A model generated the notes under the pieces. It had not been told where the DNA came from, ran no database searches, and saw only the letters and a list, made by a program, of their open reading frames with translations. Shown one piece after another: positions 55,058-64,000 of a stretch of DNA of 64,000 nt (positions are counted from its first letter, which is position 1; each line of letters begins with the position of its first letter). This DNA comes from Microcoleus sp. FACHB-1515. GTDB taxonomy: Bacteria > Cyanobacteriota > Cyanobacteriia > Elainellales > Elainellaceae. The translations under genes were made by a program, and so were the position numbers. The stretch spans positions 62,001 through 126,000 of the forward strand of contig NZ_JACJPO010000018.1 in assembly GCF_014696105.1 (NCBI RefSeq), written 5' to 3'.

Positions 55058-56002
55058 TTAACTGCGCTTCACAATCATTCGCGTCCGCAGCTCATAGCCG
55101 CCAAGCAGCAGCGTCGCGATCGCCAGCGGCAGCAAATAATAAATGCCTCGGTAGGCAATCAGCGAGCCGAACAGCGCAGGCGTGGAAATCGAGTGCGACA
55201 GCATCAAAATCACGACCGTTTCAAACACACCCAGCCCGCCGGGAACATTGCTGATCACGCCAGCAATTTGCGCTAGCAGGAAAATTCCCAAGTAGCTGCT
55301 GTAGGTAGGCGAGACGGGCAACAGCACATAGAGAACCGAGGCGGCCAGCGACCAGTCCACAGCAGCAACAGCAATTTGGGCGATCGCTAGCTGGATGGGG
55401 ACATGCGGCAAAGTGAAGCGACCGAGCCGAATCGGTCTACGGCTGACCAGATTCCACAACAGATAGACCGCAATGATCGCGACAAATAAAACGCCGATCG
55501 ATCGTGCCGATCGCAGCGGCAAATTTAGCGTGGCAGGAATCGGTGGCGGCAAAATTGTGAAAACGCCGCCCGCAACAGCAAACAGTCCCAGCCAAAAACT
55601 GAGCGAACTAAACGCGATGATTCGGGCAATCTGCATGGCAGACAGTCCCCAAGCGCTGTAGAGCCGATAGCGAATGGCACTGCCGCTGAGCAGCGCAAAG
55701 CCAACGCTGTTGCCCACAGCCGTACTGATTCCCGACACCAGTGCGGTTTGTCGATAAGGCAGTGGATGGCGAACGTAGCGCACGGCGATCGAATCATAAG
55801 TGGCAATTGCAACATAGTTCAGCTTGGTCAGCGTCAGGGCGAGCAGCAGTTTGGCAGCGGGGAGCGATCGCAAGCTTTGCAGCAGGTCGAATCGTTGATA
55901 GTGCTGTAGCTCCTGGTGCAGTGCCCAAATCGACAAAGCAAACAAGCCGATTCCCAGCAGGGCAGGCAGGACAGCAGCAAGACGACTGGCGGATTTGTTC
56001 AT
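55058..56002 (-). CDS. Lysylphosphatidylglycerol flippase-type membrane protein (UPF0104/MprF N-domain family)
   Basis: A 314-residue membrane protein with about eight helices. It belongs to the family of the N-terminal flippase half of MprF (YbhN/UPF0104), with SGISTAVGNSVGFALLSGSAIRYRLY and the C-terminal ISNVPGGLGVFETVVILML. It would move an amino-acylated lipid to the outer leaflet. Its ATG overlaps the stop of the transferase gene (ATGA, 55999-56002), so the two halves of MprF are on separate but coupled genes. The start ATG is the family-normal place. Confidence 0.88.
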   Translation of the reverse strand: MNKSASRLAAVLPALLGIGLFALSIWALHQELQHYQRFDLLQSLRSLPAAKLLLALTLTKLNYVAIATYDSIAVRYVRHPLPYRQTALVSGISTAVGNSVGFALLSGSAIRYRLYSAWGLSAMQIARIIAFSSLSFWLGLFAVAGGVFTILPPPIPATLNLPLRSARSIGVLFVAIIAVYLLWNLVSRRPIRLGRFTLPHVPIQLAIAQIAVAAVDWSLAASVLYVLLPVSPTYSSYLGIFLLAQIAGVISNVPGGLGVFETVVILMLSHSISTPALFGSLIAYRGIYYLLPLAIATLLLGGYELRTRMIVKRS

Positions 56003-57669
56003 GATCCAGGTTTGAAATAGTCTAGGAGGCGATCGCCAGAATCAGCGCGAACCAGCGCGATCGCCACGTCCGGCAGCGCAACCAGATTGGGAAAAATCAG
56101 ATAGCGCGGTTCCCAGCGGGGATGAAATTTGTCTTTGTAGCTGTGCAGTCCCTGAAAGTTATAGAACTGGTTGAGGTGATTGTAGAGGTAGTGAATTCCT
56201 CGTTCGAGGCGGCGCGATTTTGCCGTTTCCCCGACGCCCGACAGTGCCGACAGGCCGAGGTTGAACCCGTCGTATCCCTGCTGTTTGTAGTGTTGAAACA
56301 GCGAGAGGAAGAGAAAATCCATCGTGCCGTTTTCAATTTCTTGGCGACGGCGCATCAGGTCGATCGTGATGTCGTTCAGTTGATATTCGGAGATGAGGTT
56401 GGCAAACGCGCTGACCTGGCCTGTGGGCGTTCGGATCAAAGCAACCTCGCAGTTTCGCAAATAGTCGTCGTCAAACCAGCCGATCGAAAACTTCTTCTCT
56501 GACCCGCTGACCATTTGCAGCCACTCGTCACTGACCGATCGCAACTCGCGCAGCAGTTCACCCGAAATTGGCGGCTCCTGTAGCTCAAAGCGAAATCCAG
56601 CTTTGGTGAGCTTGTTGATCGCCGTTCGCAGATTGCGTCCTGCCTTTCCTTCGAGCGTAAAAGTTTTGAGATCGACGATCGCTTCTTCGCCAATTTGCAG
56701 CGTGTCAAGGCCGAGCGATCGATACAGCGGCACATCGTCCGGCAAGGTTTGATAAAAAGCGGGGTACCAATCGTTGCGGGCGCAAAATTCGCGAAAGCCG
56801 ATGATCGCTTCTTGGCGATCGTCTGCTGGCCCAATTGGATCGCCCAGTGCGATCGCGCCGCGCCCCTTTGCCACATAGCCAATCACGCTGCGGCCAGACG
56901 GACTGAAGTAATACGCTTTGTCGTCAAACAGCAAAAATCGAGCGAGGGACGATCGCCCATACTGCTCAACAATCGCCTGAACGCGCTGACGTTCGGTTAC
57001 TGTCGGCTGCGATCGCACCAAAACGGGACGCAAAATCATCAGCACGGCATAGGCGATCGTGACGGTTCCGATGATGTAGATCGAGTCGGCAAAAAATCGT
57101 CCAAAGCGCGTTGTCGGCTGCAATCCCGCTTGATCGTCGGTGAAGAACATCGCCAAAGTTTGACCGATCGCATCCGTTAAGCTGAAATTGATCGAGTATT
57201 GGCGATCGAGCAGGTAAAAGCCGATCGTGCCGTAGGCCAGCGTAAACAGCAGCGCTGCGATGAACGCGCGAATGCCCTGCGCGATCGAGGGGCGATCGGA
57301 CTGAGCGGTAAACAGATCGCGCATCCACCAAAGCTGCACCAGCAACATTGCCGACAGCAAGCCTTCCTCATAGTCCAGCCCTTTGAGCAAATGGCTGACC
57401 AGCGAAACCAGCAGCAGTGCGATCGCCAGCAGCCAAGCGACGCGCTTACGCCTGAGCAGATTCGCGGCCAGCGTCAGCAGCAAAAAGCCGCTAATTGCTG
57501 CAAATAAATGTCCGCCCGCCCGCACCTCAAACGGATAAAACTGCCGCAGCCAGCGGACGCGATCGCCCAAGCTCGGCGTAACGGCAGAAAGCAAATTCAC
57601 CACGCCGACGATCGCCGTCAGCAGTGCCACCATCCCCAGTTGAATGCGTGTTGCGCGAGAAGTGATCAC
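55999..57669 (-). CDS. DUF2156 lipid aminoacyltransferase (phosphatidylglycerol lysyltransferase-like)
   Basis: A 556-residue protein: about six N-terminal membrane helices (residues 1-250) and a cytosolic DUF2156 domain (about 270-556), a double GNAT fold like the catalytic half of MprF. Motifs are YFSPSGRSVIGYVAKGRGAIALGDP, NLRTAINKLTKAGF, and the C-terminal FNLGLSALSGVG and SYKDKFHPRWEPRYL. It would transfer an amino acid from a tRNA to phosphatidylglycerol. The start is a GTG at 57669, because GAGG lies 8 bases before it; a TTG at 57750 is less likely. It lies 83 bases after the hydrolase gene and overlaps the flippase gene by 4 bases. The amino acid is unknown. Confidence 0.9.
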   Translation of the reverse strand: MITSRATRIQLGMVALLTAIVGVVNLLSAVTPSLGDRVRWLRQFYPFEVRAGGHLFAAISGFLLLTLAANLLRRKRVAWLLAIALLLVSLVSHLLKGLDYEEGLLSAMLLVQLWWMRDLFTAQSDRPSIAQGIRAFIAALLFTLAYGTIGFYLLDRQYSINFSLTDAIGQTLAMFFTDDQAGLQPTTRFGRFFADSIYIIGTVTIAYAVLMILRPVLVRSQPTVTERQRVQAIVEQYGRSSLARFLLFDDKAYYFSPSGRSVIGYVAKGRGAIALGDPIGPADDRQEAIIGFREFCARNDWYPAFYQTLPDDVPLYRSLGLDTLQIGEEAIVDLKTFTLEGKAGRNLRTAINKLTKAGFRFELQEPPISGELLRELRSVSDEWLQMVSGSEKKFSIGWFDDDYLRNCEVALIRTPTGQVSAFANLISEYQLNDITIDLMRRRQEIENGTMDFLFLSLFQHYKQQGYDGFNLGLSALSGVGETAKSRRLERGIHYLYNHLNQFYNFQGLHSYKDKFHPRWEPRYLIFPNLVALPDVAIALVRADSGDRLLDYFKPGS

Positions 57670-57752
57670 GTATGGAACCTCGTTGCGATCGGGCTTGTTC
57701 AAATCGCGAATTTCGATCGAGCATTCGCTTTTTTGCCAATCGATTGACAACT

Positions 57753-58694
57753 TTAGTTTTGCATTCGCTGCTTGAACTGTTCGCCAACATAAGTTAAAGA
57801 ATCGTTGAGATGTTTGTGGAAATAATTCCAGCCGATGTCTGCGCCCGATAATCCATGTCCGCCTGGAAAAATGTTGAACTCGTTTGGAATATCAAGCTGA
57901 TTTAACCGCTGGTGAAACTGCTGCGTTGAAGCAACAAAATCGGTATCGTTGCGTCCCGCATCCAGATAAATTCGCACTTGCTGAAGCTGCTGCGGTGGCA
58001 ACTGCCCGATAAAAGTTTGAGGGCTATTTTGCGCTCCGCTGTTATCTGTGAAATAACCGCTGTGGCTAAACATGACGCTGAAGTGATTCAGATGCCGCAA
58101 GCCAATATTCAACGCACCCCAACCGCCTGAAGAAATGCCGCCGATCGCCCAAAACTGCGGAGATTCCATTGTGCGATAGCGCGATTTCACCACCTGCACC
58201 AGTTCCGACCCGATCAGCGTTCCCACCTTGCCATTTTCTCCGTCGAAATATTGCGGATCAAACAGCGGACTCGACCCGCGATCGTCGTTGCCATCCGGCG
58301 TAATCACGATCGAAGGTGGCAGCTTATCGCTGTGGTAAAGCTGGTCAAGAAGCGGCACGATGCCATACTTATCGGCATAGGCACGGGCGTCATCATGTCC
58401 ACCGTGCAGCAGAAAAATCACCGGATAGCGGCGATCGAGATGCTGAGCATATCCGGGTGGCAAAATCACGCCGTATTGCCGCTGCGTTCCCATTGCTTGA
58501 CTGTTGAAACTTTGAAGCTGAAAGCGCAATCCATCCGGCAGTTGCACTTCGGCAGCAGGTGCATCAAGCTGTGGCGCACCTTCAACAAAAACGTACCAAT
58601 AAGCAAAGGCAAATAAAGCAGCGATCGTCCCAGTGGTAATCAAAATAATTGTGCGAATCATGTTTTGTTTCTTCAGGTGAATCGATCGAGCCAT
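57753..58694 (-). CDS. Membrane-anchored or secreted esterase (alpha/beta hydrolase, esterase D-like)
   Basis: A 313-residue hydrolase with an N-terminal anchor or signal (IRTIILITTGTIAALFAFAYW). The catalytic domain (about 45-313) follows the esterase family D pattern: VIFLLHGGHDDARAYA, nucleophile Ser in GGISSGGWGALN, and His in FPGGHGLSG. A start at the ATG at 58661 (MIRTIIL) is also possible. It is the first gene of the operon with the DUF2156 and flippase genes. In alpha-proteobacteria an alpha/beta hydrolase (AcvB) in an lpiA operon removes lysine from lysyl-PG, so a similar role is a hypothesis here. Confidence 0.87.
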   Translation of the reverse strand: MARSIHLKKQNMIRTIILITTGTIAALFAFAYWYVFVEGAPQLDAPAAEVQLPDGLRFQLQSFNSQAMGTQRQYGVILPPGYAQHLDRRYPVIFLLHGGHDDARAYADKYGIVPLLDQLYHSDKLPPSIVITPDGNDDRGSSPLFDPQYFDGENGKVGTLIGSELVQVVKSRYRTMESPQFWAIGGISSGGWGALNIGLRHLNHFSVMFSHSGYFTDNSGAQNSPQTFIGQLPPQQLQQVRIYLDAGRNDTDFVASTQQFHQRLNQLDIPNEFNIFPGGHGLSGADIGWNYFHKHLNDSLTYVGEQFKQRMQN

Positions 58695-61641: not shown

Positions 61642-62027
61642 AACTTGGTAAAGTCGGTGTGTTGCTCCATGCGAGAACTGCTAGTTTATCAATAGGCGCA
61701 AGAGAAAAGATTCAACTCCAAATTTTCTCGGCCTAGAGCCTGCGCCTCCTGCTCAGAGCCGAACACAACATCTAGTTTCTGTTAGCTATCTACCTTGAAA
61801 GTAATGCGATCGCTATCCGTCTAGACTCTTTTTTCAGGCGTAATCGCAATTACGAAAGTATAGTCTCCTACAGAGATTTCGGTTAACTGGAAATTAGTCG
61901 TGTTGTGCGTTTGATGTCCACCTTAGTTGTGATATTTCGATCGTTCGATTCGCTACGTTTGTCCGATCAACTGGTTCAATTTCACTTCATTTATCTTCCA
62001 CATTGAACCAAATAGTCACTTCTATCG
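61642..62027 (+). ncRNA. Gene-free stretch ending in a terminator: possible noncoding RNA
   Basis: About 385 bases without a convincing ORF. On the plus strand a TATAGT (61859-61864) and, further right, a strong terminator suggest a transcript of about 190 bases. I do not match it to 6S RNA, tmRNA, RNase P RNA, Yfr1 or Yfr2 by eye. A hairpin GAGAAAA/TTTTCTC lies near 61700-61729. Confidence 0.3.
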
Positions 62028-62066
62028 AGGTCTAGCAAATCGCTAGACCTTTAGTTTTTTCTTTTT
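62028..62066 (+). terminator. Strong intrinsic terminator
   Basis: Perfect 9-base stem AGGTCTAGC (62028-62036) / GCTAGACCT (62042-62050) with a 5-base loop, then a T-rich tail (62051-62066). It acts on the plus strand, 31 bases before the stop of the opposite-strand LRAT-PspA gene. Confidence 0.85.
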
Positions 62067-62097: not shown

Positions 62098-62799
62098 CTA
62101 AAGAGAGCGAGTGAGTTTGCGATCGATCACGCTGCGGTTTTGCTCTAGCGATCGCTGCATCGTGTCAAGCTGATCAAGCTGCATCTTGAAATCATCAGCG
62201 GCTTTTTGAAAGCGCACCTTCCGCTCTAAAGCTGCCCGCGCCAAATCTTCGCGATTTTGCTTCAGAGCAAGCTGGGCGACGCGCTGCCAAGTGTTCACAT
62301 CCTGCATCGCCTGGTCATACTGCGGCTGAAGATGGCTGCGGGCATAGGTGATATTGTGAACGGCCTGATCGAACGATTGCACGGCAGCGATCGGATCTCC
62401 GGTTTCAGCCGCTTCTGCAATCAGCGGTGGAGCACTTTCGCCGCCGACGCCGCCGACGCCCAAGCCAAAATCGGCCAGTTGCTGACATTCGTTGCGTCCG
62501 GTTTTGCACCAGGTGGCAAAGTGTTCGCAGTTGTTGGTGAGCAAATTGTAGTTTTGCTCACCCAGGCGGCTTTCGGCACGCTCAATGACAATATCGGGAA
62601 TGTAGGAAACGGGATGATGTTTCACAAATATCTGTCTGCCCATCGCGAATTCTGCGATCGAGGTGCGGGCGATCATCGCTGTGTCGGTTTTACGAAAGTG
62701 AATCACCGTGCCATCACCGCAGTCGATGCCGTGATGCTCATAGATGCCAGAAAGTCCCGCAAACGGTCGCAGAACGTAGATTTGATCGCCTCGTGCCAT
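62098..62799 (-). CDS. LRAT-like acyl-enzyme fused to a PspA/IM30-like coiled coil
   Basis: A 233-residue protein. The N half (1-125) follows the LRAT/NlpC-P60-like pattern: YEHHGIDCGDGTVIHF with catalytic His near H23 and H34, and LLTNNCEHFATWC with the thiol C91. LRAT proteins move fatty acyl chains or act as phospholipases. The C half (about 135-233) is helical and follows PspA/IM30 (Vipp1): W171-x3-A-x-LAL then REDLARAALERK, as in the helical hairpin of these ESCRT-III-like membrane remodellers. The PspA part is incomplete: only the hairpin is present, not the later helices. No signal peptide. It lies 23 bases after the FHA gene, on the same strand, and is probably the last gene of that operon. 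The fusion is inferred by eye. Confidence 0.8.
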   Translation of the reverse strand: MARGDQIYVLRPFAGLSGIYEHHGIDCGDGTVIHFRKTDTAMIARTSIAEFAMGRQIFVKHHPVSYIPDIVIERAESRLGEQNYNLLTNNCEHFATWCKTGRNECQQLADFGLGVGGVGGESAPPLIAEAAETGDPIAAVQSFDQAVHNITYARSHLQPQYDQAMQDVNTWQRVAQLALKQNREDLARAALERKVRFQKAADDFKMQLDQLDTMQRSLEQNRSVIDRKLTRSL

Positions 62800-62822
62800 T
62801 ATGGGGTATTAGGTTATCGGCA

Positions 62823-63248
62823 TTAAGAAGGATTCCAGGGCAGATCGACTTCGGGCGGCTGGACGGTGATATCGGTGTCCATGCTGGTGTCGGGACGTTC
62901 GCTCACGGTGCGATCGCCTGCCAGCGCATCTTCCTTGAGCGCTTCTGAGCCAATGCGAATCCGCAAATTCGGCCCGCTGCGGGCGAGGCGAATGACTGCA
63001 CCATCCACAATTTCCACCTGTGTCACTCGCTTGCCGTCCAGATAGGTGCCGTTTGTTCCCAGATTGACGACTTCCCAGCTCTTGCCTGTCCGTCGCAGTT
63101 CCACGTGATGCCGCGACACCACTGCACTGTAGAGAATCACTTGATTGTCAGTCGATCGCCCGATGCGGATGATCGACTCATGCTCTTGGAAATTCCAGTG
63201 CTGAAGTGCAATCTGCTTGAGCGGATGCAAAAGTGTCAGGGTAATCAC
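62823..63248 (-). CDS. FHA domain protein
   Basis: A 141-residue phosphothreonine-binding protein. The FHA core is IRIGRSTDNQVILYSAVVSRHHVELR, seen here in parts (IGRSTDNQ, SRHHVEL) and NLGTNGTYLDGKRV. A short acidic tail follows (VSERPDTSMDTDITVQ) with several Thr that might themselves be phosphorylated. It starts with GTG at 63248 with no evident ribosome binding site, 60 bases after the upstream FHA gene. Confidence 0.9.
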   Translation of the reverse strand: MITLTLLHPLKQIALQHWNFQEHESIIRIGRSTDNQVILYSAVVSRHHVELRRTGKSWEVVNLGTNGTYLDGKRVTQVEIVDGAVIRLARSGPNLRIRIGSEALKEDALAGDRTVSERPDTSMDTDITVQPPEVDLPWNPS

Positions 63249-63308
63249 ATTACTGAAAAGGAATCAAAGTAAGCACGGCGATGGGTCAATGAACCGTCCG
63301 AAAAAGCA

Positions 63309-64000
63309 CTAGCTTTGGAACAAAAACGTGACGCGATCGCCTTTTCCGAGGGCAATGCGATCGCCCGCCCGCAGACGATGACGATTACCCATCGGCAAAG
63401 GCGCGTTGTTGATGTAGGTTCCATTTGAACTACCCACGTCTTCGATGTAGTAAATGCCGCCTTCAACGCGAATATCCGCATGAATGCGCGACACAATTTC
63501 GGAATCCGGAAATCCCGACACATCCACATCGGGCGGAATGCGATCGTTCGGTTTGCCAATGTGAATAACGGCCAAATTTCCCGGCAGTTCGATCGTCGTG
63601 TTGGTTTGCACGTGCAGCAGCCGCGCAGTGGGAACCTGAAGCTGCGTGCGATTGGCAGGCGTTGCAGCAACATCCGGCGGCGCAAGTGGCGACGCGATCG
63701 AATCGGGTGCAACTGGGTCGGGCGCAGCGGAGTGAGGCGCGATCGCCGGATCAGGATGGTTCACAGGTTCACTGCCGATCGGCATTGGGTCAGGGGACAC
63801 CAGCGGATCGGGCGAAACCAAATCGGGAATGTCTAAATCTGGTGCAGGAGATTCACCAACGGCAGTTGCAGGAACCGGAGCAACCGTTCGTAAGTTGGTG
63901 CCACACTGTCCGCAAAAGCTCGCATCTGCCTGCACCGCAGCGCCGCAGTTCGAGCAGGTTGTCATCGCGGGCAGCGGCGTATAGCAAGCTTCACACTGAA
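63309..64000 (-). CDS. Zinc-ribbon and FHA domain protein, 5' end outside the window
   Basis: The ATG at 63965 gives 218 residues, but the same frame is open to base 64000 and holds another Cys pair (QCEACYTPLPA), so the true start is probably beyond the window. The zinc-ribbon Cys pairs CSNCG and CGQCG follow. A Pro-, Ala- and Asp-rich linker (about residues 35-105) leads to a C-terminal FHA domain (IHIGKPNDRIPPDVDVSGF, SRIHADIRVEG, GSSNGTYINN). It should read phosphothreonine on a partner. The FHA gene and the LRAT-PspA gene follow on the same strand. Confidence 0.85.
   Translation of the reverse strand, partial: QCEACYTPLPAMTTCSNCGAAVQADASFCGQCGTNLRTVAPVPATAVGESPAPDLDIPDLVSPDPLVSPDPMPIGSEPVNHPDPAIAPHSAAPDPVAPDSIASPLAPPDVAATPANRTQLQVPTARLLHVQTNTTIELPGNLAVIHIGKPNDRIPPDVDVSGFPDSEIVSRIHADIRVEGGIYYIEDVGSSNGTYINNAPLPMGNRHRLRAGDRIALGKGDRVTFLFQS

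Follow-up and report, generated by a model that had tools for sequence, protein, structure and literature searches.

Do three adjacent genes encoding two FHA proteins and an LRAT/PspA protein form a unit in which phosphothreonine signalling acts on membrane lipids, and how far does their arrangement extend among cyanobacteria? The question is raised by one end of a 64,000-nucleotide stretch of Microcoleus sp. FACHB-1515 (contig NZ_JACJPO010000018.1), hereafter the window (Table 1). The first-pass annotation had described three same-strand genes with short gaps, two FHA proteins (one with a zinc ribbon) preceding an LRAT-PspA gene, and had named a separating promoter or terminator as evidence against the unit. 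The layout is borne out by the open reading frames, the Pfam matches and the gaps of 60 bp (FHA1-FHA2) and 23 bp (FHA2-LRAT/PspA), and a consensus scan, which is weak evidence, returned no minus-strand promoter-like or terminator-like site within the trio. The plus-strand hairpin directly behind the LRAT/PspA gene would fit a terminator of convergent plus-strand transcription. The expectation of a kinase, PP2C or vWA gene past base 64000 failed, as the next gene on the same strand is pgl, encoding 6-phosphogluconolactonase, itself adjoined by divergently oriented genes for HpsJ and a glycosyltransferase-like protein; no kinase, phosphatase (PP2C) or vWA gene adjoins the trio. The trio makes up the 3' portion of a cluster read in one direction, pgl - fraH-like - FHA2 - LRAT/Vipp1-hairpin, which is probably one operon. 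Some 3.4-6 kb from the LRAT gene, a putative esterase gene (57753-58694, minus strand) precedes, on the same strand, a gene for an MprF-like phosphatidylglycerol lysyltransferase (55999-57750, minus strand; LPG_synthase_C, 1.7e-86), possibly a second membrane-lipid modification pair.

Table 1. Features of the locus. Positions are those of the window; L009 is the contig sequence continuing past the window end.
Feature	Position	Strand	Details
pgl	~64218-64973 (L009:6219-6974)	-	upstream of FHA1; TIGR01198, 5.6e-81
FHA1, zinc-ribbon/FHA gene	63309 to ~64046 (start past window end, L009:6047)	-	245 aa
Double zinc ribbon of FHA1, C-terminal part	63891-64000	-	Pfam DZR / Zn_Ribbon
FHA domain of FHA1	63345-63530	-	Pfam PF00498; SRIH and SNGT motifs
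FHA2 gene	62823-63248	-	141 aa, GTG start; Pfam FHA 4.7e-17
FHA domain of FHA2	62985-63170	-	phosphothreonine-pocket motifs GR, SRHH, NGT
Thr114 of FHA2, candidate phosphosite	62907-62909	-	tail motif DRTVS; tail motif count
LRAT/PspA gene	62098-62799	-	233 aa; Pfam LRAT 8.6e-26, PspA_IM30 4.3e-10
LRAT/PLAAT-like catalytic domain	62491-62796 (residues 2-103)	-	Pfam, fold match, invariant H22/H34/C91
PspA/Vipp1-type alpha1-alpha2 hairpin	62137-62370 (residues 144-221)	-	Pfam, structure and profile matches
Strong hairpin	62027-62051	+	10-bp stem then T run; directly 3' of LRAT/PspA gene

Conservation of the gene order was followed across sampled cyanobacterial genomes, and the recurring order ruled out a chance trio of open reading frames. 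Proteins of the FHA1 type were matched in 97 of 292 genomes, many small genomes being without one, and most cyanobacteria having such a protein carry a single copy. Of the 60 genomes having both FHA1 and FHA2, 31, spread over 14 families, carry them side by side in one orientation, and pgl lies directly upstream of FHA1 in 41 of 45 loci examined. These comprise 25 loci selected on their FHA pair (21 adjacent) and 20 further ones taken by the best FHA1 match per genome (20 adjacent). Taken together, these counts point to pgl-FHA1 as an old gene pair and to pgl-FHA1-FHA2 as a widespread trio. The pgl-fraH adjacency (loci L192-L231) also ties the oxidative pentose phosphate pathway by position to a FraH-type protein. 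Given that pgl encodes a sugar-phosphate enzyme with no evident lipid tie, the locus need not represent one pathway.

The LRAT/PspA gene behaves differently, so that the conserved gene order anticipated at first pass held for pgl-FHA1-FHA2 across cyanobacteria and for LRAT/PspA in one clade only. Full-length LRAT/PspA proteins occur in 37 sampled genomes; where FHA2 is also present (29 genomes), the two genes are neighbours in four and apart in 25. The tree built from 110 LRAT/PspA proteins places every FHA-linked gene within one 42-row Leptolyngbya-type clade (SH-aLRT 100), with linkage in 20 of the 38 clade loci with enough flank (21 counting G011, with an M50B gene between) and in none of 64 outside, counts that do not represent independent events because identical or near-identical rows are included. 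The conserved unit is pgl - FraH-like - FHA2, and LRAT/PspA is a later addition confined to the one clade.

Since LRAT/PspA mostly lies apart from the FHA genes, it can function without physical linkage, and the linkage may be lineage-specific only. The chief rival to phosphothreonine control builds on this: an autonomous membrane-lipid maintenance enzyme would merely sit behind the old pgl-fraH-FHA2 operon in the Leptolyngbya-type clade, sharing a promoter, with no phospho-gating. The protein is indeed solitary in the large majority of cyanobacteria, and the slot behind FHA2 is variable, other lineages having M50B or unrelated genes there. However, the linkage has been kept over deep divergence (~46-61% LRAT identity to the window protein in most linked loci) and with short gaps (0-363 bp in 18 linked loci, an M50B gene intervening in two more), and the other flank is scrambled. 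Over the 18 linked loci, FHA2 recurs upstream in 17 and FHA1 in 15, whereas no gene family is found downstream of LRAT in more than three, a contrast that serves as an internal control against mere genome closeness. We regard the autonomous enzyme as a serious though somewhat doubtful explanation. The M50B (membrane metalloprotease) gene lies directly behind FHA2 in L127 (Pfam PF13398), G011, G229 and G174, and separates FHA2 from LRAT in L127 and G011. M50B-like genes in this position were observed in several families (L127:7092-7916, L195:10222-11103, L201, L207), with an HEMGH motif in L127 and L195.

The LRAT/PspA enzyme joins a PLAAT3/LRAT-like fold with an intact triad to a Vipp1/PspA hairpin. 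Its N-terminal part resembles human PLAAT3 (Foldseek: 7zom, E 1.4e-06, TMt 0.79; 4dot, E 3.2e-06, TMt 0.80) and its C-terminal part Vipp1/PspA hairpins (8qbr, E 4.6e-04), and the profile search returned the same two families, PLAAT3/HRASLS and Vipp1/PspA. None of the 110 homologues departs from H22, H34, C91, E92 and H93; which His residues are catalytic was assigned from the PLAAT alignment and from what is established for the PLAAT family. The AlphaFold model has a mean pLDDT of 76.6; confidence is high for the hairpin core and the greater part of the LRAT fold, and pLDDT is below 50 in segment 108-134 of the linker between them. The PspA_IM30 match covers profile positions 43-120 of 220 and the protein ends after the second long helix; by profile match and model, alpha0 and alpha4-alpha5, which are needed for polymer assembly, are absent. 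As it lacks alpha0 and everything from alpha4 onwards, the window protein would not be a polymer-forming ESCRT-III as such. The net charge of the hairpin is small and positive (mean +2.7, range -3 to +9). Because the isolated alpha1-3 hairpin of IM30/Vipp1 suffices to bind anionic membranes (PMC12636044), we infer membrane recruitment of the LRAT protein as well.

It is also conceivable, if unlikely, that the LRAT-like domain is a thiol hydrolase of the NlpC/P60 clan acting on peptides or amides, or deubiquitinase-like, with the hairpin binding Vipp1/PspA polymers rather than membranes. LRAT has been placed within the NlpC/P60 superfamily (Anantharaman and Aravind 2003, as cited in PMC11237479), the Pfam search gave a weak PPPDE peptidase match, and the conserved core of ESCRT-III proteins is this hairpin. 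Nevertheless, the best structure and sequence matches are the human phospholipases PLAAT3/HRASLS, which share the NCEHF motif, and phosphatidylcholine modification was predicted for such a fusion (Ravi et al., PMC11237479). As for the 'membrane stress' and 'repair' role proposed at first pass, it stays conjectural, since the PspA part is the alpha1-alpha2 hairpin alone and no psp operon genes are adjacent: the neighbouring genes are pgl, HpsJ, glycosyltransferase-like and abhydrolase genes, with no pspB/C/F or lia-type partners.

FHA1 consists of a double zinc ribbon, an acidic/proline-rich linker and a C-terminal FHA domain (Pfam: FHA, 1.9e-16; DZR over the whole protein, 2.9e-12), its phosphothreonine pocket having GK where FHA2 has GR. 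We take FraH to have the same make-up of zinc ribbon, proline-rich linker and FHA domain, and fraH of Anabaena to be alr1603, presumably lying after a pgl gene. In probable heterocyst-forming genomes (L212-L214), the relatives of FHA1 have the same domain make-up and have kept the pgl neighbour. Based on architecture, near single copy and pgl synteny, FHA1 would fit as a member of the FraH family. Heterocysts need FraH to form their honeycomb thylakoids, and overexpressing it disturbs thylakoids (PMC11500504); Slr0298 has been named as the Synechocystis homologue (PMC4057619).

The first-pass annotation had also held that the FHA proteins need a Ser/Thr kinase. No kinase gene stands beside the trio; the link itself is found in relatives, in which a kinase domain is fused to FHA2. 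FHA2 of the window has its pocket residues (alignment to the Rv1747 FHA) and no kinase domain, whereas in several relatives, L045, L047, L071, L073, L081 and L127 among them, the frame runs on into a C-terminal Hanks-type kinase domain (Pfam Pkinase 1.8e-37 in L045, 3.1e-31 in L073), four of them LRAT-linked (L071, L073, L081, L127). The catalytic HRD/DFG loops are intact in L045 and L127; HRD reads HRG in L071, L073 and L081, and L059 has HGD in its catalytic loop. An FHA2-kinase with HRD and DFG intact is that of LEGE 07170. One family, f18 (L047, L049, L050, L057), has HLH or HQH for HRD, and GWG for DFG in all but L050; its FHA2-fused kinases are likely pseudokinases, judging by these motifs.

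On the LRAT tree, the nearest linked neighbours of the window (L071, L073) have the FHA2 kinase, and the window and L070 do not, for which the simplest reading is that the domain was most likely lost from FHA2 in the lineage of the window. The short FHA2 tree (106 columns, five changes, weak support) does not establish a single gain or loss of the kinase. As the genome holds 27 other kinase-like matches, a trans-acting kinase is available. A relocated FHA2 kinase was also sought among them and rejected: the best reach 36-38% identity, whereas FHA2-fused kinases share 42-53% with one another, and there is thus no clear relocated copy.

The tails of FHA2 also differ between lineages. Among 55 tails, 21 have a Thr motif behind the FHA domain, where shuffled tails would give 0.6; this is a lead only, as the motif was defined after looking at the data. 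In a second LRAT-linked clade (L083, the linked trio of Leptolyngbya sp. PCC 6406; L090, L096, L102, L104, L107, L115, L125), the tail has neither kinase nor Thr motif and carries a short conserved helix-like stretch (MSSIHALIAKQ, SMKALRKLR), possibly a docking helix. Two FHA2 copies occur in tandem in L197 and L210, and with a few genes between them in L211.

Gene order, domains, intact LRAT/PLAAT catalytic residues, the Vipp1-type hairpin and the kinase fusions in relatives, that is, evidence from sequence and comparison, lead us to a tentative main reading with a probability of roughly 0.45: the cluster would encode a lipid acyl-hydrolase or acyltransferase that is recruited to membranes and regulated through phosphothreonine, with the FHA proteins placing or switching it. 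The LRAT protein would be a soluble phospholipase A or acyltransferase brought by its Vipp1-type hairpin to the anionic thylakoid or plasma membrane. The phosphothreonine would come from a Hanks-type kinase, formerly in cis on FHA2 and, in the genome of the window, in trans; the FraH-like protein and FHA2 would bind the phosphothreonine and so place or switch the LRAT enzyme, and lipid acyl chains would be edited where internal membranes undergo reorganisation. That the locus serves defence or conflict, with a phosphorylation signal setting free a membrane-damaging lipase, is very improbable: a lipase-like effector does lie beside signalling proteins, but no PADLOC match was worth keeping (one ZorA coiled-coil match stood at 0.017), so that an anti-phage role was set aside, and the FraH-type and pgl partners are widespread, with a clade pattern of vertical inheritance. 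The reading of a phosphothreonine-regulated lipid enzyme could be extended, as an improbable speculation, to FraH-family proteins in general, which would reorganise thylakoids by using phosphothreonine signals to bring in membrane enzymes that process lipids or proteins; the leptolyngbyoid LRAT/Vipp1-hairpin protein would be one such effector, taken up into that operon, and FHA2 a former kinase turned bare adaptor.

The probable operon, with a FraH-type protein, an FHA protein with kinase-bearing relatives and an enzyme whose PLAAT-like active site is joined to a Vipp1-type hairpin, suggests how phosphorylation might govern membrane lipid remodelling in these filamentous cyanobacteria. It provides a concrete and testable way in which Ser/Thr phosphorylation could be tied to the editing of membrane lipids, and bears on how FraH reshapes thylakoids. 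The PspA-NlpC/P60 fusion, FraH and FHA-kinases are already known. In the open-access literature, which misses most subscription journals, the pgl-fraH-FHA2(-kinase)-LRAT/Vipp1-hairpin cluster did not turn up and, under those names, neither did LRAT joined with a PspA domain in cyanobacteria.

Among known systems, ArnA of Sulfolobus (5a8i, 8s05) shares the order zinc finger - linker - FHA with FHA1, in a match falling partly on low-complexity linker. Its partner ArnB is a vWA protein, and no ArnB-type partner was seen beside FHA1. FraH of Anabaena PCC 7120 is alike in its zinc ribbon - proline-rich linker - FHA architecture; unlike FHA1, it has no known LRAT neighbour. Internal membranes are where FraH acts (PMC11500504). 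Cyanobacterial FHA-kinases such as tlr1128, listed in 2007 (PMC2176072), combine FHA and a Hanks-type kinase in one protein, as does FHA2 of the relatives; this likeness is one of architecture, the kinase being absent from FHA2 of the window. The published PspA_IM30-NlpC/P60 fusion AFZ52345.1, for which phosphatidylcholine modification was predicted, is of the same kind as the LRAT/PspA protein of the window, and the main text describing it makes no mention of FHA, LRAT or an FHA/kinase linkage (Ravi et al. 2024, PMC11237479). The alpha1-alpha2 hairpin is shared with Vipp1/IM30 and PspA, which, unlike the window protein, have alpha0 and alpha4 onwards. Human PLAAT3/HRASLS, a phospholipase A and acyltransferase, shares the fold and the NCEHF motif, but ends in a C-terminal transmembrane helix where the window protein has a Vipp1-type hairpin. 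In animals, PLAAT enzymes work on the membranes of organelles, and the probable operon offers a prokaryotic parallel to them.
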